A stretch of 64,000 nt of DNA from a virus. The stretch's first letter is position 1. Each line of letters begins with the position of its first letter. The stretch spans positions 62,001-126,000 of IMG/VR virus record IMGVR_UViG_3300030419_005541; one strand, 5' to 3'. The position numbers and the translations under genes are program-made. Positions 40,945 through 60,734 of the stretch are shown here, in pieces. The notes beneath the pieces are model-generated. The model was not told the origin of the DNA and did not search any database. It was given only the letters and a program-made list of their open reading frames with translations.

Positions 40945-41447
40945 TGGCAAGCGCAACTGACAAAAGAAGAATTTTAGTAAATGCTGTTGTTTCATTGAAA
41001 GATGAAAGCAATAAAGCATCAGACCTTGGATTTAGACATACACTTACAAGAAAAAGAAAACCATATAAACTAAATCTTAAAGATACATTATCTAATAGAA
41101 ATGAAGATTTGTTATCTCACGGACATATAAAAAGATATATAGAAGAAAAAACAATTTGTTTAAACAAACGTAAAATAGCAGTAGATTCTACAAAACAAAC
41201 TTTTCAGTTAGATGTTCCTACAGGATATAAAACGGTTACCGGAAGTGTATCTTTTAAAGTGAACGGAGTAGAACAACATAGTACAGATAATCAAGCAACA
41301 GCGATGACATCAAGTATTGATTATTTCATCGGTGACTCACCAAATTATGAATTTGTTTATTTATATAAACCTCGACAAGACCATAGTGGTTTGTTGGTAG
41401 ATAATCGAGACTCCTTAATAATTAATTATAGAGTGGAGAAAGCATAG
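40944..41447 (+). CDS. small virion protein with beta domain
   Basis: This is a 167-residue protein. The basic N-terminal part (DLGFRHTLTRKRKPYKLNLK) is followed by a beta domain (KQTFQLDVPTGYKTVTGSVS, FKVNGVEQHS, then YEFVYLYKPRQDHSGLLVD). The domain parallels that of the preceding protein, suggesting a related module. It shares one base with the start of the large adhesin. No enzymatic motif is present. Probably part of the fibre or its attachment. Confidence 0.5.
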   Translation: MASATDKRRILVNAVVSLKDESNKASDLGFRHTLTRKRKPYKLNLKDTLSNRNEDLLSHGHIKRYIEEKTICLNKRKIAVDSTKQTFQLDVPTGYKTVTGSVSFKVNGVEQHSTDNQATAMTSSIDYFIGDSPNYEFVYLYKPRQDHSGLLVDNRDSLIINYRVEKA

Positions 41448-44400
41448 TGGCTAAAATAGATTTAATAAGACAGGTAAAAGGACCGCAAACAGCATCAGTA
41501 TATGTACGTACTACAGCTGTTACGAGTTCACTTACAGGTGAATATGATTTAGAATTTGTACCTATTACAGGAATAAGTGCATCAGTAGATGGTCCTGCAA
41601 TTAGTGGTTCTCTTTCTAAAGCACATTTATCTTCAAAAGTACCTAATCTTGTAAGTGGCTCAGCACAAGTAAAAAGTTTATTACCCGCAGGAAGCGTAAG
41701 TAGTTCAGCACAGATATCAAGTTTAACAGGTGTTGTTAGTGGTTCAGCACAAATAGCTACAGATATTAGTGGTGCTTTTTCAGCACCAAGTGCTTCTTTT
41801 AGTACACGATTAACAACTGCAGAAACAGAACTATCTCTAACATTATTAAGTGGCTCAGCACAAGTAAAAAGTTTACTACCTGCGGGAACCGTAAGTAGTT
41901 CAGCACAAATATCAAATTTAACAGGTGTTGTTAGTGCCTCAGGTCAACTTTCTTCAGATATTAGTGGTTCTCTTTCTAAAGCACATTTATCTTCAAAAGT
42001 ACCAGGTGTAGTTAGTGGTTCAGCACAAATTAGGGCTGACATTAGTGGTTCTTGGACTCCATCAAGTGCATCATTTTCAACAAGATTGACAACTGCTGAA
42101 TCAGAATTATCACTTACTTTATTAAGTGGTTCAGCACAAGTAAAAAGTTTATTGCCTGCAGGAACAATAAGTAGTTCTCAGCAAATACGAAGCTTACCTA
42201 AGATGGAAGATAAAACAATTAAGATTTCACAAGTAGGTGGTGCAAATGTAAAAACTCTTGTAAACGAGTCTAATCAGCCTATCTTAAATGATGGTGATAT
42301 TTTACAATGGAGTCTTTCAGAAGGACAATTTGTACAAAGACAAAGAATAATTAATCCAACTATGTCTTTTAATTCTTCTACAAATGGTTTGGCTATTCAA
42401 GGTGGTAACTCTGTAGACTTATCAAGTCTTGCCGGAGGAGGCGGAGGCGGAGGCTCAGGTCTTGCTCTAACTGCTTCTAACGAAGGAAGTGCTTTAAGTA
42501 AAAACGTTAGAAGTATTAATTTTGTTGGTAGTGATATAACTGCATCAAATTCCGGAAACGCAGTAACGGTAACTTTAAGACAAACTCCATTTGATGGTAA
42601 TCGTGTAGTGTCTAATCCAACTATAGGACAATTATACTCTGACGAGTTTAATGCAGGTACTTCAGGGTCTATAGTAGACTTTTTGAATGGTATGTTTTTC
42701 CCAAATACAGCACCAACACTCTCAAGTAGTAAAATGGAGATAAATGAATTTGAAACAGGAAGTGCGGTTGTAGGAACAATAACCGCAACAGATGCTGAAC
42801 AATCTTCTGCGAGTGGTACTTTGACTTTTGGTACAGGAAGTTACGCCGCAGCAGTTTTTCAAATACATAGTGGTAGTGGACAAATTACCGTAAGACCAGG
42901 TAAACATACATCTGCAAGTTTAAATATAACTAATCCAGGTGATGGCACACTTAGACACTCATTTCCTGCAACCGTTAGTGATGGAATTGTCACAAGCACT
43001 GCTAATATTTTTATTAGAATTATACCAAACACCGCTCCTAAATTTAGAACAACAAGTGTAGGTGGTTCGATAATAACAAATCAAACGGGTAGTGTAAATG
43101 AAAACACAACAAATGGTACAACGGTATCAACAATTTTTGTAACAGATAGTGAATCTGATACTCTTACAATTTCAGCATTAAGTCAAAGTGCTGGAAATAA
43201 ATTTGCGATGGCAGTTGCGAATGTAGCAGGTGGTAAAAGATTAACAATAACTACAAATACTTCAAGTTTTGATTTTGAGACTGCTACACAACATAATTTA
43301 GAAGTTAGTGCTTCTGACCAACATCACGGAAACACAAGTGGTAGCTATCTAACAACTTTACCAATAAGAGTAAATGTAGTAGATAACGTTTTACCGACTA
43401 TGGGAAGTCACGCATTTAACGTTCACGAACATAGTGGTAGTAATGTTAACAACGGACTTGGAGCAAATACAAATAGTCAAACAAGAGTAGGTAATCTTAC
43501 TGCTAATGACGCAGAAGGTGATACGATAACTTTTACAGGTTTAACCGTAACAAGTGGTAGTGGAAAGGGTAATACAAATCAAAGTAATCCTGCTAATGAC
43601 CCTTTTCAAGTTTCAAGTACAGGTGAAGTTCAATTAAAAGCAGGTCAATATTTAAATGCTGATGTATTTAAACAATATAAATATAATGCAAGTTATAGAG
43701 ACAATTTTAACAATGCAAGTTCGAGTGGTGTTATAACAATAAACATTTTACCTGAACCTGTACCAACTTTAACAAGTAATGCGCCTTTCTTTATGATAGA
43801 AAGTGGAGTTGCGACTAATACGGTGAGAGTTGGAACAGATGGTAGAAGTGGAGCAGTTGCTGATTTTAATTCTAACGCTACGGTTTCAATGAGTGTTAGT
43901 TCTTCAGGATTCTTTGCATTAAGTAGTGAAGGAAATTTATCACTCGCAACAAATGTTAGTGCGAGTACGTTTACATCCGGTAGTACTATAACAGGAGCAG
44001 TTAGTGCTTCTACGGCTTATGGTACGGTAGCAACTTCTTCATTTTCTGTCAAGATTACAAAGAATAATGCACCAACACCATCTTTCAGTAATACATCAGC
44101 TAACTTGAATACAAACGGTGCGAGACCAAGTAATACATTGACTACGATATCTTTTAGTGATGCAGAAAGTGATACTCTTGAACATCCTTCATTTGTATTC
44201 ACAGACCCAAGTGGTCAGTTAGATACAAACAAAGTCGGTAACACATATCAAGTAAGAGCAGAGACTAATTTAAGTGCATCTGTTTATCAGATGACAGCAT
44301 CTATAAAAGATGAACACGGATTTAATACAGGAACTACAAAACACACAATAACGATAGCACAAGCAGGTTCAGGGTCAATGACTACAAATGGCACGTTTCG

Positions 44401-45253
44401 TATACGAGATACTGCAACAAGTGGTTCAAAAATAGTAACTGCGGCAGATGGCGACCCAACAGGAACACAAGGTGATTTAGGAGTTACATATTCACCAAAC
44501 TATAACTCACAAGCAGTACAAAACTTTACATCTTCAAATGCCGCTATACATATTGCAGACAACGGTAATTTGACCGTTAAACAGAACTTTGGTGGAGCAG
44601 GAAAACAAGCAGGAGATACTCTTACATCTACGATTAACTTTCAAGACCAATTTGGAAACTTTGGAACAGGTTCATTAACTCTTAATGTCGTAGCGACACC
44701 AAACTTAGTTTACGGTTATGGTTGGTCAGGTGGTAGTGCGGCAGCAGAATCTACTGCGATAGCATCTATGGGTGATTCAGGTGCAGATGGAGATGCAATC
44801 ACAAGTGGTAGTGTAATAGCTATGTTACAAAGTGGTTCGTTAGGAAGTACATTTACACCTTCTTATGTTGGAGGTGCGATGACATTACATAAGAGTGCTT
44901 CTTTAGCAACTATGTCTGATTCAAGTGGAAACGGAATCTCAGATTTAGGTCATTTTAATTTTTCAAGTCTTTCACAAAGAACAATAATAATATTTGCTTC
45001 AGCTTCAAATCAAGCAGGAAAACCAAGAAGTATGTACGATGGAGTACCACCCGATTCGACAGGTACTGATAAAGAATATTATTTATATGCAAAAGATGCC
45101 TCAATTCCAGGAACTATGCAAACAGGAATTTATTATTTTAATATAAAAACTCCGATAAATGGAGTTTCAAGGTGGGGTATGATTTTTGGTGAAGGTAAAA
45201 ACACTAATAATTCACGGTATTTCTTGATGCCTGATTCGGCATCAGCACCTTAA
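41447..45253 (+). CDS. large adhesin/fibre with SGSAQ repeats and cadherin-like domains
   Basis: This is a 1268-residue protein from GTG. Residues about 60-250 hold repeated units such as SGSAQVKSLLPAGTVSSSAQI, a fibre repeat frequent in marine phages. A Gly-rich hinge (GGGGGGG) follows near 330. From about 420 to 1050 there are several cadherin-like immunoglobulin-fold domains. They show APTLSSSKMEINEFETGSAV, TVSTIFVTDSESDTLTISAL and IRVNVVDNVLPTMGSHAFNV; the Asp-rich loops fit calcium sites. The C-terminal domain (NLVYGYGWSGGSAAAESTAI onward) may bind the receptor. Likely role: host-surface or particle adhesion. Confidence 0.7.
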   Translation: MAKIDLIRQVKGPQTASVYVRTTAVTSSLTGEYDLEFVPITGISASVDGPAISGSLSKAHLSSKVPNLVSGSAQVKSLLPAGSVSSSAQISSLTGVVSGSAQIATDISGAFSAPSASFSTRLTTAETELSLTLLSGSAQVKSLLPAGTVSSSAQISNLTGVVSASGQLSSDISGSLSKAHLSSKVPGVVSGSAQIRADISGSWTPSSASFSTRLTTAESELSLTLLSGSAQVKSLLPAGTISSSQQIRSLPKMEDKTIKISQVGGANVKTLVNESNQPILNDGDILQWSLSEGQFVQRQRIINPTMSFNSSTNGLAIQGGNSVDLSSLAGGGGGGGSGLALTASNEGSALSKNVRSINFVGSDITASNSGNAVTVTLRQTPFDGNRVVSNPTIGQLYSDEFNAGTSGSIVDFLNGMFFPNTAPTLSSSKMEINEFETGSAVVGTITATDAEQSSASGTLTFGTGSYAAAVFQIHSGSGQITVRPGKHTSASLNITNPGDGTLRHSFPATVSDGIVTSTANIFIRIIPNTAPKFRTTSVGGSIITNQTGSVNENTTNGTTVSTIFVTDSESDTLTISALSQSAGNKFAMAVANVAGGKRLTITTNTSSFDFETATQHNLEVSASDQHHGNTSGSYLTTLPIRVNVVDNVLPTMGSHAFNVHEHSGSNVNNGLGANTNSQTRVGNLTANDAEGDTITFTGLTVTSGSGKGNTNQSNPANDPFQVSSTGEVQLKAGQYLNADVFKQYKYNASYRDNFNNASSSGVITINILPEPVPTLTSNAPFFMIESGVATNTVRVGTDGRSGAVADFNSNATVSMSVSSSGFFALSSEGNLSLATNVSASTFTSGSTITGAVSASTAYGTVATSSFSVKITKNNAPTPSFSNTSANLNTNGARPSNTLTTISFSDAESDTLEHPSFVFTDPSGQLDTNKVGNTYQVRAETNLSASVYQMTASIKDEHGFNTGTTKHTITIAQAGSGSMTTNGTFRIRDTATSGSKIVTAADGDPTGTQGDLGVTYSPNYNSQAVQNFTSSNAAIHIADNGNLTVKQNFGGAGKQAGDTLTSTINFQDQFGNFGTGSLTLNVVATPNLVYGYGWSGGSAAAESTAIASMGDSGADGDAITSGSVIAMLQSGSLGSTFTPSYVGGAMTLHKSASLATMSDSSGNGISDLGHFNFSSLSQRTIIIFASASNQAGKPRSMYDGVPPDSTGTDKEYYLYAKDASIPGTMQTGIYYFNIKTPINGVSRWGMIFGEGKNTNNSRYFLMPDSASAP
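41600..41643 (+). repeat. 44-base exact direct repeat, copy 1
   Basis: This begins ATTAGTGGTTCTCTTTCTAA and is identical to 41960-42003, offset by 360 bases. It encodes ISGSLSKAHLSSKVP in both places. Confidence 0.85.
41960..42003 (+). repeat. 44-base exact direct repeat, copy 2
   Basis: This is the second copy of the 41600-41643 sequence. It marks an in-frame duplication of about 360 bases (120 residues) in the adhesin stalk. Confidence 0.85.
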
Positions 45254-48333: not shown

Positions 48334-48972
48334 ATGCCAAGTTGGAAAAAATTAGTCACGAGCGGTAGTGACGCTTCAATACCAAGTGTATCACCTTCAG
48401 GTGATTTTACTATCGATGCAGGTTCAAATATCAATCTTGATGCTGATGGTGCAGTTATAAAATTAAAAGATGATGGAACAGAATTTGGTAGATTAAGTAG
48501 AGTTTCTTCTGATTTAGTTATAAAATCCGCAGGTAATAATAATGATATTATATTCAAAGGTGTTGATGCTTCATCAACCATAACTGCACTTACTTTAGAT
48601 ATGTCTGAAGGCGGAAATGCTAATTTTGAAGGTTATGTAAGTGGTTCAGCATTGGTAGGTATACAAACTGCCGCTTCAATGACAGGTGCAAACAACGTAG
48701 ATTTATCAACATCTGCAAATCATAATATTACAATAACAGGGAATATCACTTTAACTCCAACAAACTTCGCAGGAAGAAAAGGACAAAGTGGTATTATAAC
48801 ATTAATTCAAGATAGTTCAGGTGGTCATTCAATAACATTAAATTCATTGTTTAAAACGCCTAGGGGAGATTCCATAAGCTTTGATACATCTGCTGATGGC
48901 GTATCACTAATGTCTTATTACGTGATAGACGCAACAAGAGTAGCAGTTAATTACTTAGGTCCATTCTCGTAA
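48334..48972 (+). CDS. short fibre-like protein
   Basis: This is a 212-residue protein with AGGAGAAG before the ATG. It begins MPSWKKLVTSGSDASIPSVS, closely paralleling the start of the 46071 fibre (MASWKKVIVSGS), so the two probably share the same attachment domain. The middle has FTIDAGSNINLDADGAVIKL and VIKSAGNNNDIIFKGVD. The C-terminal domain (NITLTPTNFAGRKGQSGIIT and later Ile/Leu strands) is a beta fold common at fibre tips. Likely a second fibre competing for or stacking on the same attachment point. Confidence 0.6.
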   Translation: MPSWKKLVTSGSDASIPSVSPSGDFTIDAGSNINLDADGAVIKLKDDGTEFGRLSRVSSDLVIKSAGNNNDIIFKGVDASSTITALTLDMSEGGNANFEGYVSGSALVGIQTAASMTGANNVDLSTSANHNITITGNITLTPTNFAGRKGQSGIITLIQDSSGGHSITLNSLFKTPRGDSISFDTSADGVSLMSYYVIDATRVAVNYLGPFS

Positions 48973-48989: not shown

Positions 48990-51900
48990 ATGGTCGGTGG
49001 ATTCGGATTTTTAGACGAATTAAAATTCAATACTGAATTTAATACTACTAAAAGTACAAGTACTTCTAAGAACACCACCTTAGCCACTTCTACATCAAAA
49101 GCTACTGCTACTTCAAAAAGTACAATTACTACTTTTAATACTACAAAAGAAACTACTACAACTTATAATACTACCAAGTCAACTATAACGACTTTTGATA
49201 CAACTCTAAGTACTGCTACTTCAAAATCAACGTCAACTTCAAAAAGTACGTCTACAACTTTTAACACTACGTTAGAAACTATTACTGCCTACAACACTAC
49301 GTTAGAAACTATTACTACCTACAACACTACGTTAGAAACTATTACAACTTACGAAACAACTAAGAGTACTATAGAATCAAGAGCAACTGCTACTTCGAAA
49401 GCAACTATTACGACTTTTAATACCACGTTAGAAACTATTGAATCTCGTGCTACTTCTACATCGAAAAGTACGATTACAACTTTTGAAACGACTTTAGAAA
49501 CTATCACGACATATAATACTACTCTGAGTACGATAGAAACACGGGCGACATCCACCTCAAAGTCCACCATAACTACTTTTAATACTACGTTAGAAACAAT
49601 TACAACTTATGAAACTACTCTGAGTACTATTGAACAGCGGTCCACGGGTACTTCTAAGTCAACTATAACTACTTTTAATACTACGTTAACAACTATCACA
49701 ACTTTTGAAACTACGTTAAGTACGATAGAAACACGGGCGACATCCACCTCAAAAAGTACGATTACAACTTATGAAACTACTCTGAGTACCATTGAACAAC
49801 GAGCCACCTCTACTTCAAAAAGTACTATTACCACGTATAATACAACATTAGCAACTATAACAACTTATGAAACTACTCTGAGTACTATTGAATCTCGGGC
49901 TACTTCGACCTCAAAAAGTACGATTACAACTTATGAAACTACATTAGAAACTATTGAAACTCGTGCTACTTCGACTTCAAAAAGTACAATTACTACTTTT
50001 GAAACTACATTGGCAACTATTACTACCTATGAGACTACTCTGAGTACGATAGAATCAAGAGCAACCTCTACTTCAAAAACTACGATTACAACTTTTATTA
50101 CTTCGAAGAGTACTATCACAACTTATAATACTATTACAACTTATAGTACGATAACGACTTATAATACTACCTTAGCAACTATTACAACTTACAATACTAT
50201 AAAAGAAACCACCACAACTTTTGATACAATTACAACATATTCTACAATTACAACTTATGAAACTTCTAAGTCAACAATTACGACCTATAATACTATTACA
50301 ACTTATAGTACGATAACGACTTATAATACTACAAAAAGTACGACAACAACTTTTAGTACTATTACAACTTATAGTACAATTACAACGTATAATACCACTT
50401 TAGCAACTATTACAACTTACGAAACTTCTGTAAGTACTATTGAATCGAGGTCCACAGGTACATCAAAATCTACGATTACTACTTACAACACTACATTGGC
50501 AACTATTACAACCTATGAGACTTCTAAAAGCACAATAGAAACAAGGGCAACGTCTACTTCGAAATCAACTACTACAACTTATAATACTATAAAAGAAACT
50601 ACTACGACTTTTAGTACTATTACAACTTATAGTACAATTACAACGTATAATACCACTTTAGCAACTATTACAACGTATGAAACGACTAAGAGTACTATTG
50701 AGCAGAGGTCTACTTCTACTTCAAGAGCTACGATTACAACTTTTATTACTTCGAAGGCAACTATTACGACTTATAATACTACCCTAAGTACCATTGAGCA
50801 GAGGTCTACTTCTACTTCAAGAGCTACTATTACAACTTTTAATACTACTAAGAGCACCACAACTACTTATAATACTATTACTACTAAAGCAACTATAACT
50901 ACTTTTGAAACTTCTAAAAGTACAATAGAAACAAGAGCTACTTCTACATCGAAAAGCACGAGTACAACTTATGAAACCACATTAAGTACAATAGAAACGA
51001 GGTCTACAGGTACATCAAAAAGTACTACAACGATTTATTCTACCGCGACTACAAAAGAAACTACTACAACTTATAATACTACGAAAAGTACGACTACTGC
51101 GTATGCTACTTCTACTACAAAAGAAACTACTACAACTTATAATACTACGGCAAGTACGACTACCGCATATGCTACTTCTACTACAAAAGAAACCACTACA
51201 ACATTTGGTACAATTACGGTTTATAGTACAATTACAACGTTTAATACAACATTGGCAACTATTACAACGTATAATACAACGTTGGCAACTATTACAACTT
51301 ATAATACTATTACCACAAAGAGTACAATTACAAGTTATAATACTATTACTTCGAAAACTACGATTACAACTTTTAATACTTCTAAAAGCACAATAGAAAC
51401 AAGAAGTACGATTACATCGAAAACTACAAGTACAACTTATAATACTACTTTAGCAACTATTACAACTTATAATACTTCTAAAAGTACAATAGAAACAAGA
51501 AGTACGATTACAACTTTTATTACTTCAAAAAATACAATTACAGAGTTTTCACAAATTACTATTTTTTCTACGATTACAACAAGAATTACAACGAGAGAAA
51601 CAGATACGGTTTATGAAACATCTAAGTCAACTACCACGACTTATATAACTTCAAAATCGACTACAAGAAGCACTCTTGAAGTAAAAAGTACAACTACAAC
51701 TTATAATACTACGAAAAGTACGATTACATCATATCTTTCAAGTTTTAATACGATTACTTCGAAGAATACTACTACCACAAGGAGTACAGCTACTTCAAAA
51801 AATACAACTACTATTTATGCTACGATTACAACGTTTAATACCAATACTTCAAAAACCACGGTTTTCAATACTACTAAAAATACCGTAAACGCAACTATTT

Positions 51901-54900
51901 ATGGAACGTATAGAAATACTACTACGATTTTCAACACAATTAAATCTACAACGTATAAAACATATTTCTTTACCTTTGACCCAAGGTCAGGTGGTGAGAT
52001 AACAAGTAGAAATACCAGCAGAAATACAACTAAATCTACTTCGAGAACTACATCTACTTTACTTGCAATTACAATGAGGATTACAACTTTTATCACTACG
52101 AAAAGTACCTCAAGAACTACAACTTATAGTACCGCAACTACTCGAAGCACCATTGAATCAAGAAATACGAGTACAACTTTTGGTACTATTACAAGTTTTG
52201 ATGTAATTACTATTTTTGCTACGATTACCGCAAAGAATACTTCTCGTGAAACGGATACGGTTTATAATACCACCAAGTCAACTATTACAAGTTATAATAC
52301 CATTACCACGTATATTACAAGTTATAATACAAGTAAAACAACTATTACAACTTATAATACCACCAAGTCAACTATTACAAGTTATTTGACTGCTTTTAAT
52401 ACAATTACTTCTAAAAGCACTATAACATCGAGGTCTACAGCAACTTCGTATAATACTACTTTGAGTACGATTACTACGTATTCTACTACTACCACGTATA
52501 ATACTACTTTGAGTACAATTACAACTTATAATACTTCAAAAGATACAACTACTATTTATGCTACGATTACAACTTATAGTACGATAACGACCTATAATAC
52601 TATAAAAGAAACAACCACGACTTATTCTACTATTACCACGAAGAGTACAATTACTGCGTATGCTACTATTACTACAAAAGAAACAATAACGACTTATAAC
52701 ACCACCAAGGAAACAATTACAACATATAATACTACTCTGAGTACTATTGAACAGCGGTCAACATCTACCTCGAGGATAACTATAACAACGTATAATACTA
52801 TTACTTCAAAAAGTACAATTACAACTTATAATACAAGTAAAACAACTATTACAACGTATAATACTATTACTTCAAAAAGTACAATAACTACGTATAATAC
52901 TACTTTAACAACTATTACAACTTATAATACGATTACTTCGAAGAGTACGATTACCTCGTATAATACTATTACAACGTATTCTACCATAACTACCTATAAT
53001 ACTTCTAAGAATACGATTACAACTTATAATACTATTACAACGTATTCTACTATAACTACCTATAATACTACTTTAGAAACAATTACTGCGTATGCTACTA
53101 TTACTACAAAAGCTACAATAACTACATATAATACCACGTTAGAAACTATTACGACTTTTAGTACCACTACAACTTATAGTACAATAACGACCTATAATAC
53201 TACAAAAGAAACTATTACAAGTTATAATACTACATTAGAAACTATTACGACTTTTAGTACCACTACAACTTATAGTACGATAACTACTTACAACACTACG
53301 TTGGAAACTATTACGACTTATAATACTACCCTAAGTACTATTGAACAAAGAGCAACTTCTACTTCGAAAACTACGATTACGACTTTTAATACTTCTAAGT
53401 CAACTATAACAACGTATAATACAATTACAACGTATAGTACAATTACGACCTATAATACCACGTTAGAAACTATTACAACTTATAATACTACTAAGTCAAC
53501 TATTACAAGTTATAATACTATTACGGTTTATTCTACTATAACTACTTTTAATACCACGTTAGAAACAATTACAACCTACGAAACTACGTTAAGCACTATT
53601 GAGCAGAGGTCAACAAGTACATCTAAAAATACGATTACAACTTTTAATACTACCTTGAGTACTATTGAGACAAGGGCAACTTCTACTTCAAAAAGTACAA
53701 CTACTACGTATAATACAACACTAAGTACTATTGAACAAAGAGCAACCTCTACTTCAAAAACTACTATAACTACTTTTAATACCACGTTAGAAACAATTAC
53801 AACTTATGAAACTACATTAAGTACTATTGAGACCAGGTCTACAAGTACTTCAAAGAGTACAATTACAAGTTATAATACTATAAAAGAAACTATCACGACT
53901 TATAATACTATAACGACTTACAGCACAATTACGACCTATAATACCACGTTAGAAACTATTACAACTTATAATACGACCTTAAGTACAATTACAACTTTTG
54001 ATACAATTACAACTTATGCGACTATAACAACCTATAATACTACTAAGTCAACAATTACAACTTACAACACGATTACAACTTATAGTACGATAACTACTTA
54101 CAACACTACGTTGGAAACTATTACAACTTACGAAACGACTAAGAGTACTACAACTACTTATGATACAATTACAGCATATTCAACTATAACAACGTATAAT
54201 ACTACCAAGTCAACTATTACGACTTACAACACGATTACAACTTATAGTACAATTACAACGTATAATACTATAAAAGAAACTACCACAACTTATAATACTA
54301 CAAAGAGTACGATTACAAGTTATAATACTATAACGACTTATAGTACAATTACAACTTATAATACAACATTGGCAACCATTACAACGTACAATACTACTAA
54401 GTCAACAATTACGACCTATAATACTATTACAACTTATAGTACAATTACAACGTATGAAACGACTTTGGCAACTATTACGACTTATAATACTACGAAGTCA
54501 ACTACTACGACTTTTGATACAATTACAGCTTATGCAACTATAACGACTTATGAAACTACGTTAGAGACTATTACGACTTATAATACTATAACGACTTATA
54601 GTACAATTACAACGTATAATACCACTTTAGCAACTATTACAACGTATGAAACGACTTTGGCAACTATTACAACGTATGAAACGACTTTGGCAACTATTAC
54701 AACTTTTGAAACTTCTAAGTCAACTATAACTACTTTTAATACTACTACGGTATATAATACAATAACAACTTACAATACCACTAAGTCAACTATTACAACC
54801 TATGAAACGACTTTGGCAACTATTACGACTTATGAAACTACAAAGAGTACTATTACGACTTATAATACTATAACTACTTTTGATACAATTACAGAATATA

Positions 54901-54962
54901 CTACCGTATATGATACGATAACAACTTTTACCACAACTCGAATAACAAGTTATTACTTCTGA
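48990..54962 (+). CDS. giant Thr-rich repeat protein (mucin-like fibre)
   Basis: This 1990-residue protein begins MVGGFGFLDELKFNTEFNTT and is then almost wholly repeats. The units are TTYNTI or TTYSTI (6 residues), TTYNTTLETI or TTFETTLATI (10) and ESRATSTSKSTI (12). Every unit is even in length and ends Thr-Ile or Ser-Ile, so Ile and Tyr recur regularly on one face. About half of all residues are Thr, and Gly, Pro and Cys are rare. A short non-repeat island (FFTFDPRSGGEITSRN) is near residue 995. The chain ends TRITSYYF. The pattern suits a long beta-structured or extended fibre with dense Thr/Ser for O-glycosylation. There is no signal peptide. Function is inferred from neighbours. Confidence 0.7.
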   Translation: MVGGFGFLDELKFNTEFNTTKSTSTSKNTTLATSTSKATATSKSTITTFNTTKETTTTYNTTKSTITTFDTTLSTATSKSTSTSKSTSTTFNTTLETITAYNTTLETITTYNTTLETITTYETTKSTIESRATATSKATITTFNTTLETIESRATSTSKSTITTFETTLETITTYNTTLSTIETRATSTSKSTITTFNTTLETITTYETTLSTIEQRSTGTSKSTITTFNTTLTTITTFETTLSTIETRATSTSKSTITTYETTLSTIEQRATSTSKSTITTYNTTLATITTYETTLSTIESRATSTSKSTITTYETTLETIETRATSTSKSTITTFETTLATITTYETTLSTIESRATSTSKTTITTFITSKSTITTYNTITTYSTITTYNTTLATITTYNTIKETTTTFDTITTYSTITTYETSKSTITTYNTITTYSTITTYNTTKSTTTTFSTITTYSTITTYNTTLATITTYETSVSTIESRSTGTSKSTITTYNTTLATITTYETSKSTIETRATSTSKSTTTTYNTIKETTTTFSTITTYSTITTYNTTLATITTYETTKSTIEQRSTSTSRATITTFITSKATITTYNTTLSTIEQRSTSTSRATITTFNTTKSTTTTYNTITTKATITTFETSKSTIETRATSTSKSTSTTYETTLSTIETRSTGTSKSTTTIYSTATTKETTTTYNTTKSTTTAYATSTTKETTTTYNTTASTTTAYATSTTKETTTTFGTITVYSTITTFNTTLATITTYNTTLATITTYNTITTKSTITSYNTITSKTTITTFNTSKSTIETRSTITSKTTSTTYNTTLATITTYNTSKSTIETRSTITTFITSKNTITEFSQITIFSTITTRITTRETDTVYETSKSTTTTYITSKSTTRSTLEVKSTTTTYNTTKSTITSYLSSFNTITSKNTTTTRSTATSKNTTTIYATITTFNTNTSKTTVFNTTKNTVNATIYGTYRNTTTIFNTIKSTTYKTYFFTFDPRSGGEITSRNTSRNTTKSTSRTTSTLLAITMRITTFITTKSTSRTTTYSTATTRSTIESRNTSTTFGTITSFDVITIFATITAKNTSRETDTVYNTTKSTITSYNTITTYITSYNTSKTTITTYNTTKSTITSYLTAFNTITSKSTITSRSTATSYNTTLSTITTYSTTTTYNTTLSTITTYNTSKDTTTIYATITTYSTITTYNTIKETTTTYSTITTKSTITAYATITTKETITTYNTTKETITTYNTTLSTIEQRSTSTSRITITTYNTITSKSTITTYNTSKTTITTYNTITSKSTITTYNTTLTTITTYNTITSKSTITSYNTITTYSTITTYNTSKNTITTYNTITTYSTITTYNTTLETITAYATITTKATITTYNTTLETITTFSTTTTYSTITTYNTTKETITSYNTTLETITTFSTTTTYSTITTYNTTLETITTYNTTLSTIEQRATSTSKTTITTFNTSKSTITTYNTITTYSTITTYNTTLETITTYNTTKSTITSYNTITVYSTITTFNTTLETITTYETTLSTIEQRSTSTSKNTITTFNTTLSTIETRATSTSKSTTTTYNTTLSTIEQRATSTSKTTITTFNTTLETITTYETTLSTIETRSTSTSKSTITSYNTIKETITTYNTITTYSTITTYNTTLETITTYNTTLSTITTFDTITTYATITTYNTTKSTITTYNTITTYSTITTYNTTLETITTYETTKSTTTTYDTITAYSTITTYNTTKSTITTYNTITTYSTITTYNTIKETTTTYNTTKSTITSYNTITTYSTITTYNTTLATITTYNTTKSTITTYNTITTYSTITTYETTLATITTYNTTKSTTTTFDTITAYATITTYETTLETITTYNTITTYSTITTYNTTLATITTYETTLATITTYETTLATITTFETSKSTITTFNTTTVYNTITTYNTTKSTITTYETTLATITTYETTKSTITTYNTITTFDTITEYTTVYDTITTFTTTRITSYYF
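49030..54950 (+). repeat. degenerate 18/30/36-base tandem repeat array
   Basis: DNA of the Thr-rich gene is made of ACT/ACA/ACG Thr codons with TAT/TTT and ATT at fixed phase. Units vary at third positions but keep the protein pattern. Near-identical longer blocks recur, for example the block around GAGCAGAGGTCTACTTCTAC near 50700 and 50796. The coding strand is strikingly poor in G. Confidence 0.85.
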
Positions 54963-55036: not shown

Positions 55037-56008
55037 ATGGCTAAAATGCAAAACGAAATGTTTGACCCTAATAATATGGAGGAACGCATTGGCGAGTATG
55101 AAAAGAATAAATATTTGGTTGACAATCTCGCAGGTGTAGATAAATTCTTCAGAAAACGTATGAGAAGATATACTACAGAATTTTCATATGATGTTATGGC
55201 AAACGAAATACCATATTTTAAAACAATAAATTATACAGAATATGCTACATCATTTATGATGGTTCCTCTTAGTCAAATAATGAGAGAGCAACAAATTAAA
55301 GATGCTTACTATGATGAAGAAAATGAAGAATATCCAATATTAGATTGGGTAACTTACTTTAGAGAAAATGTAGAAAATAAAGTATCTAACAAATATGAAG
55401 ATAGAGTAGATTTTACTAAAGACCCACAATATGATAGAGAACTTGAAGCATTAGTAATTTTACCAGGTTCTAATAAAATAAAAAGTAGGATTTGTTTAAA
55501 TAAATTAAAGACTATAAAAGATAGACACGGAGATAAAGTTTTATTTAAACCACATCCTATAACACAACATCAGATTATAGGTGAGTTAAAAGACTTGTTT
55601 GGTGAATCTTGTATATTACCACGTGAAGCAGACTTATATGCTTTTATGTTGAAGGTTCCTAAAATCTATACAACTAATATTAGTGAATCTTGTTTGTATG
55701 CAGTTTGTTTAGAAAAACAACTTGACCATATTGAAGTACATCAAGATATGGCTTGGGGTTCTTTCTATCATATGAGTTGGCCTATTTATCAATCTGAAGT
55801 ACGTGGACAAGATACACATTATTGGATTAACAAAGTTCTTTCAAGTCCTAAATGTGGAATAGTAAATCCTAAAGTAGACTTAAATTGGAAGAAAAAACTT
55901 AGTGATTATTTAACTTACATACACAAAGAGAGGGAGTTATGGTACGAAGTTTTTGTACGTGATGACCCTATTACAAAACCTGAAGAATTTAAAAAGAAGA
56001 AATCTTAG
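55037..56008 (+). CDS. putative GT-B-type glycosyltransferase-like protein
   Basis: This is a 323-residue protein with AAGGAG before the ATG. The C-terminal half has LVILPGSNKIKSRICLNKLK, then KVLFKPHPITQHQIIGELKD and LYAFMLKVPKIYTTNISESC. A Lys-Pro-His-Pro strand followed by a helix and a Thr-x-x-Ser-Glu-Ser segment resembles the nucleotide-sugar half of GT-B enzymes such as capsule or glycerophosphate transferases. The N-terminal half is Tyr/Glu-rich and not recognised. It heads the sugar cassette, ten bases before the kdsA fusion. The family is uncertain and catalysis unproven. Confidence 0.45.
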   Translation: MAKMQNEMFDPNNMEERIGEYEKNKYLVDNLAGVDKFFRKRMRRYTTEFSYDVMANEIPYFKTINYTEYATSFMMVPLSQIMREQQIKDAYYDEENEEYPILDWVTYFRENVENKVSNKYEDRVDFTKDPQYDRELEALVILPGSNKIKSRICLNKLKTIKDRHGDKVLFKPHPITQHQIIGELKDLFGESCILPREADLYAFMLKVPKIYTTNISESCLYAVCLEKQLDHIEVHQDMAWGSFYHMSWPIYQSEVRGQDTHYWINKVLSSPKCGIVNPKVDLNWKKKLSDYLTYIHKERELWYEVFVRDDPITKPEEFKKKKS

Positions 56009-56017
56009 GAGTTTCAA

Positions 56018-57436
56018 ATGAAAGAAATTTCAGTTTCAAATATAACATTTGGTGGTGAAGATACACCTCTAATAGCAGGACCTTGTGTTGTTGAGACATA
56101 CAAACTTGCTACTGATGTTGCAAAACAACTTGTGAAGATAGGAGAAAAAACAAACACTCCTATAATTTATAAAAGTTCTTTTGATAAAGCAAATCGTTCT
56201 TCTAATTCATCTTACAGAGGACCTGGAATAGAAAAAGGATTAGAAGCACTTAGACGAGTAAAAGATGAAACAGGATTACCTGTTCTTACTGATATACACG
56301 AAGTTCATCACGTAAATGAAGTAGCAGAAGTTGCTGATATATTACAAATACCTGCTTTTTTATGTAGACAAACAGACTTGATAAAAGCCGCAGCACAAAC
56401 CGGTAAAGTAGTAAATGTAAAAAAAGGTCAATTTTTGTCACCTTGGGAAATAGAAAATGTAATAATAAAAATTACAGAAGAAGGTAATGAGAATATTTTG
56501 ATTACAGAACGTGGAACACAATTTGGATATCAGAATCTTGTTGTTGATATGAGGTCAATTCCTATTATGCAACAATTCGGATTTCCTGTTATCTTTGATG
56601 CTACGCATAGCAATCAACTTCCTGGCGGAAACGGAACATCTACAGCAGGTATGAGAGATATGGTGCCTTATTTAGCTAAAGCGGCGGTGGCAGTTGGATG
56701 TGATGGATTGTTTTTCGAAACACATCCTGACCCTAAAAATGCTAAATCTGATGCGTCAACACAATGGCCTTTAGATGAGTTAGAAGAAGTTATTTCAAAT
56801 CTAAAAATGAAACCAGCTAAGGTAGTCGATTCCGCTCCTAGTCGAAATTTAAGAGAAAGTCAAGCAAAAACTTACATAAAATCATTAAAAGAAAAAAGTT
56901 TAAAACATAGAACTATAGATTTTAATGATATGGAAGAAAAAGAAGAAAAATCCGTAAGTAATAAAAAACCTTCACCTAATTCATTTGAAAGCACCGTTGT
57001 TCATTTGATGAATGAACGTGAATTGACCGAGAGAATAAATATTGATTCTGAAAGTGAATATGCTAAATTAGATTTAGATAAAAAATACCAAACCGTTGTT
57101 TCAGATAAATATCTTGATACTTTAAATCCATTAGAAGTAGATGAAGTATTAGTTCAAATATTTAATATAGCAGAACGTTTAATAGTTTTACATCTTGAAC
57201 CAGCAAGAAGACCTGTACAATGGTGGATGGATAAGTTTCAGTTTTTAAGAGAAAGACACGACCAAGAAGAACTAAACATATTTGTAGTTTTTGATGCTAA
57301 ACCTAATGAACTTAAAATGATTACGTTGCCTAACGACTATCATCAAAAGAAAAAACAACAAGAAGAGAGACTAAAAGGAAAGCGCGTTCCATTTGTTTCG
57401 TGGAGAGATAATAATAAACCTAAACCAAGGATGTAA
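56018..57436 (+). CDS. kdsA: Kdo-8-phosphate synthase fused to a methyltransferase-like C-terminal domain
   Basis: This is a 472-residue protein. Residues 1-268 are a complete KdsA: LIAGPCVVE, YKSSFDKANRSS (51-62), LPVLTDIHE, VNVKKGQFLSPWE, ITERGTQFGY and VIFDATHSNQLPGG. It condenses phosphoenolpyruvate with arabinose-5-phosphate to Kdo-8-phosphate. Asn (in KANRSS) and the absence of a clear Cys metal ligand suggest the metal-independent type. The extra 200 residues (about 270-472) are not part of KdsA. They include KYQTVVSDKYLDTLNPLEVD, LIVLHLEPARRPVQWWMDKF and FVVFDAKPNE, which resemble the C-terminal half of class I SAM methyltransferases. The SAM-binding glycine motif is missing. Confidence 0.85.
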   Translation: MKEISVSNITFGGEDTPLIAGPCVVETYKLATDVAKQLVKIGEKTNTPIIYKSSFDKANRSSNSSYRGPGIEKGLEALRRVKDETGLPVLTDIHEVHHVNEVAEVADILQIPAFLCRQTDLIKAAAQTGKVVNVKKGQFLSPWEIENVIIKITEEGNENILITERGTQFGYQNLVVDMRSIPIMQQFGFPVIFDATHSNQLPGGNGTSTAGMRDMVPYLAKAAVAVGCDGLFFETHPDPKNAKSDASTQWPLDELEEVISNLKMKPAKVVDSAPSRNLRESQAKTYIKSLKEKSLKHRTIDFNDMEEKEEKSVSNKKPSPNSFESTVVHLMNERELTERINIDSESEYAKLDLDKKYQTVVSDKYLDTLNPLEVDEVLVQIFNIAERLIVLHLEPARRPVQWWMDKFQFLRERHDQEELNIFVVFDAKPNELKMITLPNDYHQKKKQQEERLKGKRVPFVSWRDNNKPKPRM

Positions 57437-57437
57437 T

Positions 57438-57782
57438 ATGCACACAGCAGGAAAAGTATGGGGCAAAACAGCTAATATATTTTCTAATCCTAACTTTGAA
57501 GTACATAGGATTGAAGTAAATAAAGGCGGATTCTGTTCTAAACATAAACACAAATATAAATTCAATGCTTTTTATGTAGAAAGTGGTGAATTAGAAATTA
57601 TAATTTATAAAAATGACTACGATTTAGTAGATACTACGGTTCTTAAAGCAGGTGATATGACGATTGCTAAACCAGGTGAATATCATAGTTTTAAAGCAAA
57701 TGCAAAAACAATTTGTTATGAACTTTATTGGGTAGAATTAAATCACAACGATATTGAAAGAGAATCTGTAGGCGGTATTTAG
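57438..57782 (+). CDS. cupin-domain protein (sugar isomerase/epimerase-like)
   Basis: This is a 114-residue single-domain cupin, starting at the ATG two bases after the kdsA stop. Cupin motif 1 is GGFCSKHKHKYKFNAFYVES followed by GELE, with His36 and His38 as metal ligands. Motif 2 is AGDMTIAKPGEYHSF with His83. Such short cupins in sugar clusters act as epimerases, isomerases or sugar-binding regulators (mannose-6-phosphate isomerase-like). The substrate cannot be deduced. It shares one base with the next start, so it is translationally coupled to the GT29-like gene. Confidence 0.7.
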   Translation: MHTAGKVWGKTANIFSNPNFEVHRIEVNKGGFCSKHKHKYKFNAFYVESGELEIIIYKNDYDLVDTTVLKAGDMTIAKPGEYHSFKANAKTICYELYWVELNHNDIERESVGGI

Positions 57783-58591
57783 TGTTATCAGTTCCTATTC
57801 AAAATCTTGTAAAAGATAAAAGAGTTATCATTGTAGGTAATTCTGTAGAAATGATGAAACACGAATATGGTGATTTTATTGATTCTTTTGATATTGTTGT
57901 TCATTTAGGTGCGGCTATCACAAGAGGTAAAAAATTTTACAAACATCTTGGAAGTAGAACTGACATATGGGCTACCGGTACATTCAGATTTGATTGTTAT
58001 TGGGATTGTGAAGAGGATTTTATCAGTGGTAGATATAAAGATACTATGGTATTATTTAATAGAGCAAGAACTAAATTATTAAACGTAGATGCTATAGCTC
58101 ATTTTGAAAATCAATTACCACAAATACCAAGAAAAGATATGTTTTGTGATGTAGAACTTATAAACTTGTTAGATGAATTTAACTATTTAGATGGATTTGG
58201 TGATGGATACAGAGGACCTAAAAACGGAATGAGACCATCAGGCGGATTTATAACTATTTTATATTTTATTAGAAAAGTACAAACTTATAAAAGTTTAGAT
58301 ATAATAGGTTTTGATTTTTTTAGAAAAACAACGGATGTTTATAGAAAAAAACCAAACGATGAAACAAAAGGAGCTGTGCCATTTAGTTGGTATATGCCTA
58401 TGAGGTCTGCAACAACAGGTAGCCATCCACATAATAAAACATTAGAATTTGATTATGTTAAAAAATTAGAAAAAGAAAACAAAATAAATTGGAATGTACT
58501 AACTGATTTAAAAGATAAAGTAGTAAAGTACGATGGATGGTTAGAAGGGTCTGAACAATGGAATAGAGGTATCACAAAAAGTGATTCTTGA
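57782..58591 (+). CDS. GT29-like (sialyltransferase-like) transferase
   Basis: This 269-residue protein starts at GTG overlapping the previous TAG by one base. RVIIVGNSVEMMKHEYGDFI then DSFDIVVHLG and HLGSRTDIWATG correspond to sialylmotif L of family 29 glycosyltransferases: Val-Gly-Asn-Ser, an Ile-Asp-x-x-Asp strand and Gly-x-Arg-Thr-Asp. RPSGGFITILYFI and LDIIGFDFF match the following part, and a late SHPHNKTLEFDYV gives a conserved His-x-x-x region. GT29 enzymes transfer CMP-sialic acid, and bacterial/viral relatives may use CMP-Kdo or related acids. With kdsA nearby, transfer of a Kdo-type sugar is plausible (inference). Confidence 0.65.
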   Translation: MLSVPIQNLVKDKRVIIVGNSVEMMKHEYGDFIDSFDIVVHLGAAITRGKKFYKHLGSRTDIWATGTFRFDCYWDCEEDFISGRYKDTMVLFNRARTKLLNVDAIAHFENQLPQIPRKDMFCDVELINLLDEFNYLDGFGDGYRGPKNGMRPSGGFITILYFIRKVQTYKSLDIIGFDFFRKTTDVYRKKPNDETKGAVPFSWYMPMRSATTGSHPHNKTLEFDYVKKLEKENKINWNVLTDLKDKVVKYDGWLEGSEQWNRGITKSDS

Positions 58592-59492
58592 CAATAAACA
58601 CAGCTTTCTTCAATATAGAAAAGACCAAGAGAAGAAACATTTAAAATTAATTAAAAATACTACTAATCCTTTACATAGTATTCTAACGGTTGAAATGAAT
58701 CTTACAGAATTATGTAATAGAAAATGTGTTTTTTGTCCACGACACGACCCTAAAGTATATCCTAACAGAAACTTGAACACAACTATTGAAGACGCAACTA
58801 CTATAGCAAAACGTTTAGCAGATTTTGATTACTTTGGTAGAATATCATTTAGTGGATTTGGAGAAAACTTTTTAAATAAACAATTTAACGAAATTGTACA
58901 CGCTATGAGAAAAGAATTACCTACTAATGTATTTGAATGTAACACAAATGGTGATTTTTTAAACAAAAAAACCGTTACAGAAATATACGAAAATGGTATG
59001 GATATGTTGTACATAAATTTATACGATGGTCTTGAACAAATAGACCCTTTTGTAAAGATAATGAAAGAAGCAGGTATACCTGAAGAAAATTATAAATTAC
59101 GAGCGCATCATACACAAGACGAATGGGGATTATTTGTAAATAATAGAAGCGGTCTTATAGATTGGATAGGGTTTGATGAGGATGATATTGAAAATTTAAA
59201 AGGCACAAAATGTCACTATCCGTATTACAAAATGTTTGTGGATTGGAATGGTGATGTATTGTTCTGTTCTAATGATTGGGGTAGAGAAATAGTAATTGGT
59301 AATCTAATTGAAAGTTCTGTTATGGATGTTTGGATGGGTGAAGAGATGAAAAAAGTTCGTGATAGACTTTCAGTAGGAGATAGAAGTCACAGCCCGTGTA
59401 ATACGTGTTCAGTAAAAGGTGACTTATTTGGAGAACCAAGTTTTAACTTAATTAATGAGTATTATGAGAGTAGCGATAACAGGTCACACTAA
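58581..59492 (+). CDS. radical SAM protein with SPASM-like C-terminal cysteines
   Basis: This is a 303-residue protein from GTG, overlapping the GT29-like gene by 11 bases. VEMNLTELCNRKCVFCPRHD has the radical SAM CxxxCxxC cluster (Cys45, Cys49, Cys52). ISFSGFGENFLNKQ is the Gly-Glu motif, and ECNTNGDFLNKK follows. The C-terminal part has KCHYPYYKMFVDWNGDVLFC and SPCNTCSVKG, cysteines of a SPASM or twitch-type auxiliary cluster. Such enzymes modify sugars (dehydrogenation, epimerisation) or peptides. The context favours a sugar or a Thr/Ser-rich protein target. The exact reaction is unknown. Confidence 0.75.
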   Translation: MILDNKHSFLQYRKDQEKKHLKLIKNTTNPLHSILTVEMNLTELCNRKCVFCPRHDPKVYPNRNLNTTIEDATTIAKRLADFDYFGRISFSGFGENFLNKQFNEIVHAMRKELPTNVFECNTNGDFLNKKTVTEIYENGMDMLYINLYDGLEQIDPFVKIMKEAGIPEENYKLRAHHTQDEWGLFVNNRSGLIDWIGFDEDDIENLKGTKCHYPYYKMFVDWNGDVLFCSNDWGREIVIGNLIESSVMDVWMGEEMKKVRDRLSVGDRSHSPCNTCSVKGDLFGEPSFNLINEYYESSDNRSH

Positions 59493-60030
59493 CGGATTAG
59501 GTAAAGAATTATATAATCGTCTTTACGATATGTATCCTTTTGAAGTTCATGGATTTTCTCGTACAAACGATTATGATGTTTCCGACAATTATGAAAGAGC
59601 AAAGATAATTTTAAAGATAGAAGAATGTGATTTGTTTATTAATAATGCACATCCATTGTTTGACCAAACACGTATGTTAATGGAAGTGTTTGATAAGTGG
59701 AAATATGAAGATAAAACTATTGTTAATATAATTAGTAGAGCAAAGTATGACAATATATCTAAAGGATTTATGTATTCTGCTTCTAAAGCATCATTATCAC
59801 ATCTTTCACATAATTTAAGATTTAACACAGATAAAAAATGTAAGATAATTGATGTAAATCCAGGACTACTTGAATCAGCCTTATCAAGTTTAACTTATAA
59901 AGAGATGGCAGATATTGTTATGTGGTGTATTAATCAACCAAAACATATTGAAATAGGTGAAATATCTGCTTGGCATAGAGATTCATATGTTGAGGTACAA
60001 AAAGAAAAAGCAAAACTCTTTAAAAAATGA
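59455..60030 (+). CDS. short-chain dehydrogenase/reductase (SDR)
   Basis: This is a 191-residue protein; starts at 59455 and 59464 are both possible, overlapping the radical SAM gene. VAITGHTNGLG is the nucleotide-binding Thr-Gly-x3-Gly-x-Gly pattern. LFINNAH corresponds to the Asn-Asn-Ala-Gly strand. Tyr107 and Lys111 in YSASKASL are the catalytic YxxxK pair. IDVNPGLLES follows as the Pro-Gly segment. It is short for an SDR (usually about 250). It would oxidise or reduce a sugar or nucleotide-sugar in the cassette. It overlaps the next gene by four bases (ATGA). Confidence 0.8.
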   Translation: MSIMRVAITGHTNGLGKELYNRLYDMYPFEVHGFSRTNDYDVSDNYERAKIILKIEECDLFINNAHPLFDQTRMLMEVFDKWKYEDKTIVNIISRAKYDNISKGFMYSASKASLSHLSHNLRFNTDKKCKIIDVNPGLLESALSSLTYKEMADIVMWCINQPKHIEIGEISAWHRDSYVEVQKEKAKLFKK

Positions 60031-60734
60031 ACATTTATATAGGTTATGATAGTAGACAAGATTATTCTGAAGATTTTGCAGATGTTGTAAATCCACCATA
60101 TCAAGTATCGAAGTATTCAATAGAAAAATACAATAAAAGTGTTATTATAGAACCTATAATTATTTCAGAATTAAGAAGAAAACAGATATATTGGAGAGGA
60201 ACTGACTATTTATCAAGTACTGAATTTGTTTATAGTAGATTTCTTACTCCTTATCTTAATGGATACAAAGGAATTGCATTATTTTGTGATTCAGATTTTT
60301 TATGGCAATCAGATGTAAATGAATTATTAGATTATTATGATAGTAAGTATTCTGTTATGTGTGTAAAACATAATTATACACCACCGGAAAGTACAAAGAT
60401 GGATGGAAAAGCACAAACACATTATCCAAGAAAAAATTGGTCAAGTCTTATGTTGTTTAATTGTTCTCATCCTGATATTAAAAAATTAAATGTTAAAAAT
60501 ATTAACACAAAAGACGCAAAATGGTTGCATAGATTTGAATGGACAAGTGATGAGTGTGTAGGAGAGATACCAGCAACTTTCAATTGGTTAGAAGGTTGGT
60601 ATAATGATAACGTAGACCCAAAAGCTATACATTATACACGTGGAGGTCCTTGGCATACGACTTGGAATGGTCACTATAAAGACAAATGGGTACAAACATA
60701 TAACGAATTAGTTAAGGAGAAATCAAATGGCTAA
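60027..60734 (+). CDS. glycosyltransferase (GT-A type, DxD)
   Basis: This is a 235-residue protein. It begins MNIYIGYDSRQDYSEDFADV, has YLSSTEFVYSRFLTPYLNGY and then IALFCDSDFLW with the metal-binding DxD (Asp88, Asp90). Later LEGWYNDNVDPKAIHYTRGG and PWHT provide the conserved His/Gly acceptor region. This set matches small glycosyltransferases common in alphaproteobacterial and phage surface-sugar clusters. It is the last sugar gene. The next gene starts eight bases before its end. The donor and acceptor are unknown. Confidence 0.75.
   Translation: MNIYIGYDSRQDYSEDFADVVNPPYQVSKYSIEKYNKSVIIEPIIISELRRKQIYWRGTDYLSSTEFVYSRFLTPYLNGYKGIALFCDSDFLWQSDVNELLDYYDSKYSVMCVKHNYTPPESTKMDGKAQTHYPRKNWSSLMLFNCSHPDIKKLNVKNINTKDAKWLHRFEWTSDECVGEIPATFNWLEGWYNDNVDPKAIHYTRGGPWHTTWNGHYKDKWVQTYNELVKEKSNG

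Follow-up and report, generated by a model that had tools for sequence, protein, structure and literature searches.

A giant threonine-rich phage protein with mirror-complementary halves, a probable double-stranded beta-ribbon fibre

Introduction

Tail fibres of bacteriophages are generally trimeric and chaperone-dependent, and they commonly adopt beta-solenoid or triple beta-helix folds. The tip of T4 gp37 is a thin needle whose chains each extend to its far end and return, giving antiparallel strands. In beta-hairpins, aromatic-lysine pairs across the two strands are favourable. The gp37 needle measures about 150 by 25 angstrom (PMC3004832). The subject of this study is a threonine-rich protein of 1,990 amino acids (aa) encoded at positions 48990-54962 of a 64,000-nucleotide stretch of viral DNA, called the window below (G000:C1:62001-126000, part of the 126.5-kb IMG/VR virus record IMGVR_UViG_3300030419_005541). 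Judging from its sequence, this protein is probably a giant fibre of a marine phage, folded as a single antiparallel two-stranded beta-ribbon hairpin.

Repeat structure of the protein

The open reading frame (ORF) lies on the plus strand, and there are no other long open frames at the locus. Threonine accounts for 43.8% of the residues, somewhat less than the half stated by the first-pass annotation of this DNA, which had rightly called the repeat Thr-rich; Ser accounts for 11% (Thr and Ser together 55%), Ile for 10% and Gly for 0.6%, and there is no His, Cys or Trp. The repeat matched no family in sequence searches against PHROG, Pfam and PDB, and the protein has neither an S74 domain (Pfam search) nor a globular domain. 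The open-access literature yielded nothing relevant on Thr-rich, palindromic or hairpin phage fibres or on phage glycosylation with 3-deoxy-D-manno-oct-2-ulosonic acid (Kdo), which agrees with the earlier statement that no described family was recognised and is not proof of novelty.

Spacing between successive Ile residues is even in 199 of 200 intervals, as the first-pass annotation had claimed for its units of 6, 10 and 12 residues. These three lengths are the chief unit vocabulary of the protein (75 intervals of 10, 64 of 6 and 21 of 12), and other lengths missing from that description occur too, namely 4 (13 intervals), 16 (7), 20 (6) and 2 (3), besides 14 and 22. The same units are written in many codon strings; the peptide TTYSTI, for example, is present in 18 copies encoded by 10 DNA forms.

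The alternation was evaluated by comparing a two-state alternating model with rare slips to a single-state model, with the sequence shuffled in 30-residue blocks as the null. The two-state model gained 0.34 nats per residue, against 0.004-0.008 in the shuffled sequences, and found a single phase slip across the 1,990 residues, at residue 1026. One face of the strand (face a) consists of Thr (59%) with Tyr, Phe, Leu, Lys and Arg, and the other (face b) of Thr, Ser, Ile, Asn, Ala and Glu. The proposal of one hydrophobic face does not hold, for Ile and the aromatic residues sit on opposite faces and the hydrophobic classes are split between face b (Ile) and face a (Tyr, Phe, Leu).

Complementarity between the two halves

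Positions of bulky residues (Y, F, L, K, R, W, H, Q) in the first half were compared with those in the second half reversed. The correlation reached r=0.93 at one register (0-based i+j=1999), with 0.58 at the runner-up register, whereas the parallel (direct-lag) correlation between the halves was at most 0.25. This register divides the protein into the following parts (window coordinates).

48990..54962, plus strand: Thr-rich protein of 1,990 aa, the candidate hairpin fibre (ORF, two-phase alternation; purifying selection from relatives)
48990..49019, plus strand: N-terminal cap, residues 1-10 (MVGGFGFLDE), unpaired; the mirrored alignment begins at residue 11
49020..51920, plus strand: predicted outgoing arm, residues 11-977, pairing with residues 1990-1024 backwards (0-based i+j=1999)
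51921..52058, plus strand: predicted tip region, residues 978-1023, with the turn FDPRSGG at the midpoint (minimum of Thr, Ser and Asn at 0.498 of the length; register change near residue 978)
52059..54959, plus strand: predicted returning arm, residues 1024-1990, with the conserved end ...TSYYF/TSYYVS

The phase slip at residue 1026 falls just past the tip region. At i+j=1999, a bulky residue faces another bulky residue in 179 pairs and a non-bulky one in 21; 177 of the 179 join an aromatic residue with K, R, L or Q and two are like pairs, figures that have to be read with the pairs being non-independent (repeats and contigs share ancestry) and the registers picked as best. Controls with other registers, unit shuffles and non-cognate partners answer the first-order concern: alternative registers yield 53% opposite pairs, and shuffling the order of units in the C-terminal half gave a best score of -61 against the observed 158. 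Pooled over four proteins, the most common pairs are F-K (164), K-Y (136), R-Y (134), F-R (95), F-L (63), L-Y (49) and F-Q (22), and like pairs are depleted (F-Y 3, 84 expected; K-K 1, 34 expected). On face b of the same four proteins, Ile-Ile is enriched 4.7-fold and Asn-Ser 2.5-fold.

The irregular order of the units is explained by this complementarity, because the sequence of words in one half has its reversed complement in the other. A 10-mer such as TTYNTTLETI, with one aromatic residue and one K or L, faces another 10-mer. The 12-mers generally bear two or three K, R or Q; in one of them, ESRATSTSKSTI, these are R and K alone, and opposite it stand two 6-mers (for example TTYSTI) with one aromatic residue apiece. 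Both the mirror symmetry about the midpoint and the pairing behind the unit order go beyond the first-pass annotation, whose suggestion of a beta-type fibre instead of a random linker gains from the residue-level antiparallel complementarity a stronger argument than parity.

Alternating inward and outward residues would also be expected of a monomeric beta-solenoid or a triple-stranded beta-helix with parallel stacking of its coils, of the type seen in the T4 gp5 C-terminus or the adenovirus shaft. However, unit lengths of 4, 6, 10, 12 and 16 in irregular order provide no constant coil, the direct-lag correlation is far below the mirror value, and a protein with 0.6% Gly and units of 6, 10 and 12 does not show the conserved-Gly octapeptide of gp5 (PMC3004832). 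Such a fold is hardly credible here.

Homologues and selection

Relatives were sought in IMG/VR by a degenerate DNA pattern for TT[FY]xTITT[FY] together with the downstream gene. This search for the unit in viral metagenomes, which the first-pass annotation had proposed, recovered about 20 contigs. Their homologues, complete or partial and 1,786-3,418 aa long, keep the N-terminal GFLDELKF, the C-terminal TSYYF/TSYYVS and the neighbouring genes; the consensus of the cap, kept in all relatives, is M(ANGA/AGG/VGG)FGF(L/F)(D/E)ELKF. The pattern scan also yielded Thr-rich proteins of quite different composition (the L061/L048/L026 group, L011, and the groups beginning MPNTT... and MKWLW...). Face preferences trained on the window protein alone gave z values of 15-47 on other Thr-rich phage proteins, against -1.4 to 2.7 on control proteins from the same phages. 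Phase slips are rare in the relatives as well, with one in 3,421 residues of L009 and none in 3,308 of L082. Insertions and deletions between close homologues measure 12, 24 and 76 aa, all even, and odd-length units are uncommon among homologues. Of the two outcomes that the first-pass annotation had named as refuting its reading, neither appeared. In one contig (3300037961_006939, L010/L055 at about 9536-10114), a frame change breaks the Thr-rich gene, probably through an assembly error in the repeat.

The mirror correlation peaks at the proteins' own midpoints in five relatives (L009 0.84, L078 0.86, L093 0.70, L061 0.89 and L011 0.59). Gapped pairing of six homologues gave 1403 opposite and 8 like pairs, and changes of register were nearly absent, bar one bulge of 76 residues in L093. 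That register jump, near residue 349, amounts to one arm bulging out unpaired. When homologues are compared, an insertion of 12 aa on one side of the hairpin has its counterpart on the other, and paired residues are exchanged together (RY to FK, KF to YR, TT to RY). Each of the eight single-gene proteins, which range from 762 to 3,418 aa, has its minimum of Thr, Ser and Asn at 0.487-0.514 of its length; these midpoint islands read FDPRSGG in the window protein, VDPFRGP in L009, FPFYNPPF in L093 and NLNFDPENG in L048.

The ratio of nonsynonymous to synonymous substitution (dN/dS) is 0.19-0.32 between close homologues. Selection acts on the fibre at the protein level, as follows from this ratio and from the synonymous variety of identical units. 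For the same two reasons a cause at the DNA level, namely an inverted repeat, was rejected; moreover, both halves encode Thr (ACN) on the same strand, and by reasoning Y-K and F-R pairs do not come from reverse-complement or mirror DNA.

Fibres encoded by two genes

Many contigs of marine phages encode each arm in a gene of its own, the two Thr-rich genes being adjacent. The product of gene 1 (beginning MKWLW..., MNFLW... or MRNL...) often has a C-terminal globular or S74 chaperone domain (S74 above the Pfam cut-off in L148, L165 and L180, and by phrog_6121 in L052), and that of gene 2 (MPNTT...) has its globular part, where present, usually close to the N-terminus. The lengths of the Thr tracts of the two genes are correlated at r=0.953 with a ratio of 1.007 +/- 0.067 (14 pairs). 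The two products show antiparallel complementarity, with 1006 opposite and 36 like pairs, the N-terminus of the gene 1 product always lying opposite the C-terminus of that of gene 2. For 12 of the 14 gene 1 proteins the cognate gene 2 is the top partner of the 14, with a mean r of 0.62 for cognate versus 0.35 for non-cognate pairs. As far as sequence can tell, the pairing between these products is an independent replicate of the mirror register, in proteins that have no continuous chain. A methyltransferase-like ORF lies between the two Thr-rich genes in L050 (5633-6682, minus strand; weak PF13649 match), L065 (1411-2469) and L039 (717-1862) and is possibly a further modifier of the fibre. In L197, the gene pair is on a contig binned into a Flavobacteriales metagenome-assembled genome (TMED123) and is probably phage DNA; it is the sole confirmed match among 84,980 prokaryote genomes.

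A tblastn search of the Thr-rich proteins against INPHARED gave no match, as expected with the low-complexity masking of BLAST, and relatives among isolates were located via the neighbouring transferase-like gene described below. Short forms of 168-198 aa are found in cultured Vibrio phages as KVP40.0254, QD01_260 and the 'cell wall mannoprotein' of 6E35.1a. All three have a significant mirror pattern (p<0.005 by shuffling), and their opposite to like ratios of 9:0, 10:0 and 12:0 are illustrative, the register having been chosen as best. Vibrio phages F86 and D479, which seemed to be exceptions, carry unannotated Thr-rich ORFs just 5' of the transferase-like gene (L104 3062-3667 and L105 3134-3676).

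Two other arrangements can be weighed against these results. An antiparallel homodimer or domain-swapped ribbon, in which the N-terminal half of one chain pairs with the C-terminal half of another, would have double the length and no turn, and the Gly/Pro island would be a bend or crossing point. It satisfies the mirror complementarity equally well, and the two-gene partners certainly are two chains. However, the island of Gly, Pro and Asp at the midpoint is turn-like and coincides with a register change and a phase slip, and the globular or S74 domains at the C-terminus of gene 1 and the N-terminus of gene 2 occupy the place of the island, which suits a tip; we regard the homodimer as unlikely. 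A disordered, mucin-like, O-glycosylated linker, whose alternation merely sets the glycosylation sites, would account for the 55% of Thr and Ser, for the glycosyltransferase-like gene that adjoins in every relative and for the low confidence of structure prediction on the repeat. Disorder, though, gives no reason for a register exact to the single residue with a partner 50-1,980 residues away, nor for arm lengths that match across separate genes, and this explanation is very improbable.

Neighbouring genes

The fibre gene belongs to a late tail and baseplate cluster, with a fibre-like gene upstream and sheath and tube genes downstream, an arrangement found in the relatives as well. The T4-like late cluster of the window comprises a major head protein, a gp15-like tail sheath stabiliser, S74 fibres, tail sheath and tube. 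A protein of 1,268 aa with a cadherin domain (PF00028, 3.6e-9) is encoded at 41447-45253 in the structural region of this cluster, and a second, conventional long fibre of the same phage (2,199 aa, at 10543-17142) carries an S74 chaperone at its C-terminus (PF13884, 3.1e-16). The genes around the Thr-rich gene are as follows.

48334..48972, plus strand: upstream tail-fibre-like protein (MPSWKK..., 212 aa; PHROG tail fibre matches of 3e-4 to 2e-3; same place in relatives)
55037..56008, plus strand: putative CMP-Kdo/sialate-type glycosyltransferase, GT-B fold, KPHP at 171-174 (AlphaFold2, VIA and synteny)
56018..57436, plus strand: KDO-8-phosphate synthase with a C-terminal extension of about 200 aa (NCBIfam PRK05198/KdsA, 1.9e-119, above cut-off)
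57393..57782, plus strand: small cupin-like protein (phrog_7851, 3.6e-11; conserved at 93-97% in relatives)
57782..58591, plus strand: GT29 (sialyltransferase)-like protein (PF00777, 4.6e-8, above cut-off)
58581..59492, plus strand: radical SAM/SPASM protein, absent from L091, L094 and L096 (PF04055/PF13186; synteny)
59455..60030, plus strand: short-chain dehydrogenase-like (SDR) protein, absent from L091, L094 and L096 (phrog_3142, 5.6e-10)
60027..60734, plus strand: phrog_28018 protein, the last cassette gene before the tail sheath (phrog_28018, 1.2e-58)
61088 (start): tail sheath gene (phrog_23, 2.3e-66)

The genes of this cassette are kept in the relatives of the window, the radical SAM/SPASM and SDR genes being usually, not always, present. 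The extension of the KDO-8-phosphate synthase is conserved in relatives. The sequence of the phrog_28018 protein suggests a glycosyltransferase, and this gene recurs together with the GT29, radical SAM and SDR genes beside the Thr-rich protein of L061. A D/L beta-helix produced by radical SAM epimerisation was considered and dropped, since L091 lacks the gene and its fibre pattern is nevertheless intact.

At all 74 IMG/VR loci with sufficient upstream sequence (not dereplicated), the transferase-like gene lies 3' of a Thr-rich gene, at a distance of 54-72 bases. By family profile, a member is found at most a few hundred bases 3' of the Thr-rich gene in L011, L048, L061 and L026, and at about 2.4 kb in L052. 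The AlphaFold2 model of its product has a predicted local distance difference test score (pLDDT) of 78 and a predicted template modelling score of 0.79. Retaining beta-Kdo transferases make up the 14 best VIA structural matches (Z 8.2-10.8, with KpsC at 10.8, WbbB at 9.9 and KrkA at 8.6; next other family 7.5) and likewise the four Foldseek matches with E < 0.001 (E 1e-4). Weak matches in single members were to PF05159 (Capsule_synth, 3 of 23 members, best 6e-4), GT52 (5e-4) and polysialyltransferase (0.26). Retaining Kdo transferases and sialyltransferases bind cytidine monophosphate (CMP) through the motif (K/R)XHP (PMC12887879), and the motifs of retaining Kdo transferases include QXXXD with the nucleophilic Asp (PMC12887879, PMC9587256). 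The KPHP at residues 171-174 fits the former, and its K, H and P are invariant in 23 diverse members. In these members QXXXD is absent, the loop reading L-x-G-S/T-N with no conserved Asp, and since this motif is missing the protein was not assigned to the retaining Kdo transferase families. It is a putative CMP-sugar transferase, as its model suggests, and is not placed in GT99, GT107 or GT140.

Alternatively, the transferase-like protein and the KDO-8-phosphate synthase may act on the host lipopolysaccharide, for receptor masking or superinfection exclusion, their link to the fibre being operon layout only. Kdo is a lipopolysaccharide sugar, and enzymes known to share the fold make capsule and O-antigen (PMC10148158, PMC9587256, PMC12887879). 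On the other hand, the gene stands close behind the Thr-rich gene at every testable locus, the same neighbourhood exists in unrelated isolated phages of Vibrio and Caulobacter, also in those with no KDO synthase beside the gene, and the window cassette is co-oriented between the fibre and sheath genes. We consider an action on the host doubtful.

Discussion

In the preferred reading, the hairpin, the chain would run out for about 970 residues, turn at the Gly/Pro tip in the middle and return zipped residue against residue. On face a, Thr-Thr pairs would separate the pairs of F or Y with K, R, L or Q; on face b, Ile would stand opposite Ile, Asn opposite Ser and Glu opposite Thr. Both chain ends would be at the virion base and the turn, or the S74 or globular domain, at the distal tip. 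A fibre would probably contain more than one ribbon; S74 chaperones elsewhere act on trimers. At the textbook beta-strand value of 0.33 nm per residue, the 972 pairs of the window protein, when extended, would span about 320 nm, and the paired arms of the longest relatives 530-560 nm, lengths that to our knowledge exceed those of most known fibres. The alternation, the midpoint turn, the one mirror register and the pairing between separate gene products can be read directly in the sequences; the physical beta-ribbon, the pairing within one chain, the virion location and the association of several ribbons are what we infer from them. There is a good chance that 'double-stranded' protein fibres of this kind are encoded by tailed phages, with two arms from one gene or two adjacent ones, a two-class code resembling base pairs over hundreds to 1,700 pairs, lineage-specific words that preserve the complementarity, and a Kdo-type coat added by a dedicated transferase.

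The GT-B enzyme, fed by the KDO-8-phosphate synthase of the phage and by CMP-Kdo synthesis of the host, may add a Kdo-like acid sugar to the Thr and Ser hydroxyls, and the coat would make the surface charged, soluble, protease-resistant or receptor-masking. Coating by the neighbouring enzyme is likely, with the fibre as its presumed acceptor, and is less certain than the ribbon.

Several points weigh against this interpretation. The ribbon is predicted from sequence; the sole AlphaFold2 run on the repeat, a monomer of the C-terminal 250 aa, gave a pLDDT of 27, a value that speaks neither for nor against the ribbon because the partner strand was missing from the run, and no virion proteomics for the fibre protein was found. 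The pairing would suit a homodimer equally. Owing to the common ancestry of the repeats, the pairs do not count as independent, and every register is a selected optimum. The small proteins of Caulobacter phages (Lullwater, BL199, Quill and Cr30), which share the Thr-rich composition and the neighbouring gene with the window fibre, show no significant mirror. As to the sugar, the QXXXD nucleophile motif is absent, and neither a CMP-Kdo synthetase nor kpsF was found in the 126.5-kb record.

If the interpretation is true, a natural protein would have very long-range partner recognition that is as legible in sequence as the stem of a nucleic acid, and separate genes would covary and show cognate specificity for each other. 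A directly testable folding rule would follow, as would a new architecture for materials; for hundreds of marine phage contigs one could then predict which partner a fibre arm has, how long the fibre is and where its tip lies. Moreover, the interpretation proposes a substrate for a widespread phage glycosyltransferase-like family and would explain some odd annotations in cultured Vibrio phages (KVP40.0254 as hypothetical; 'cell wall mannoprotein' in QD01 and 6E35.1a).

Among known systems, the retaining Kdo transferases KpsC, WbbB and KrkA (GT107, GT99 and GT140) resemble the product of the neighbouring gene in fold and in (K/R)XHP, matched by its KPHP, but differ in QXXXD, which is replaced there by LPGSN, and share 9-16% identity with it. 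As with fibres chaperoned by S74 (endosialidase-type), several two-gene relatives end gene 1 in S74; the window protein, however, is without it and no tail-fibre family of PHROG or Pfam matches the repeat, and it is described as fibre-like and not filed in a named family. With the T4 gp37 needle it would share the antiparallel out-and-back chain, which its mirror complementarity strongly indicates. The needle, however, is about 15 nm long and holds iron through His motifs, and no two-class pairing code is described for it, whereas the window fibre has no His, paired arms that would reach about 320-560 nm, and arms that may be separate genes in relatives. Silk fibroin, (GAGAGS)n, likewise alternates two residue classes strictly on a beta strand but is without long-range register or mirror complementarity. 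Natural short hairpins extend over tens of residues, against hundreds to 1,700 predicted pairs here with about 99% class complementarity.

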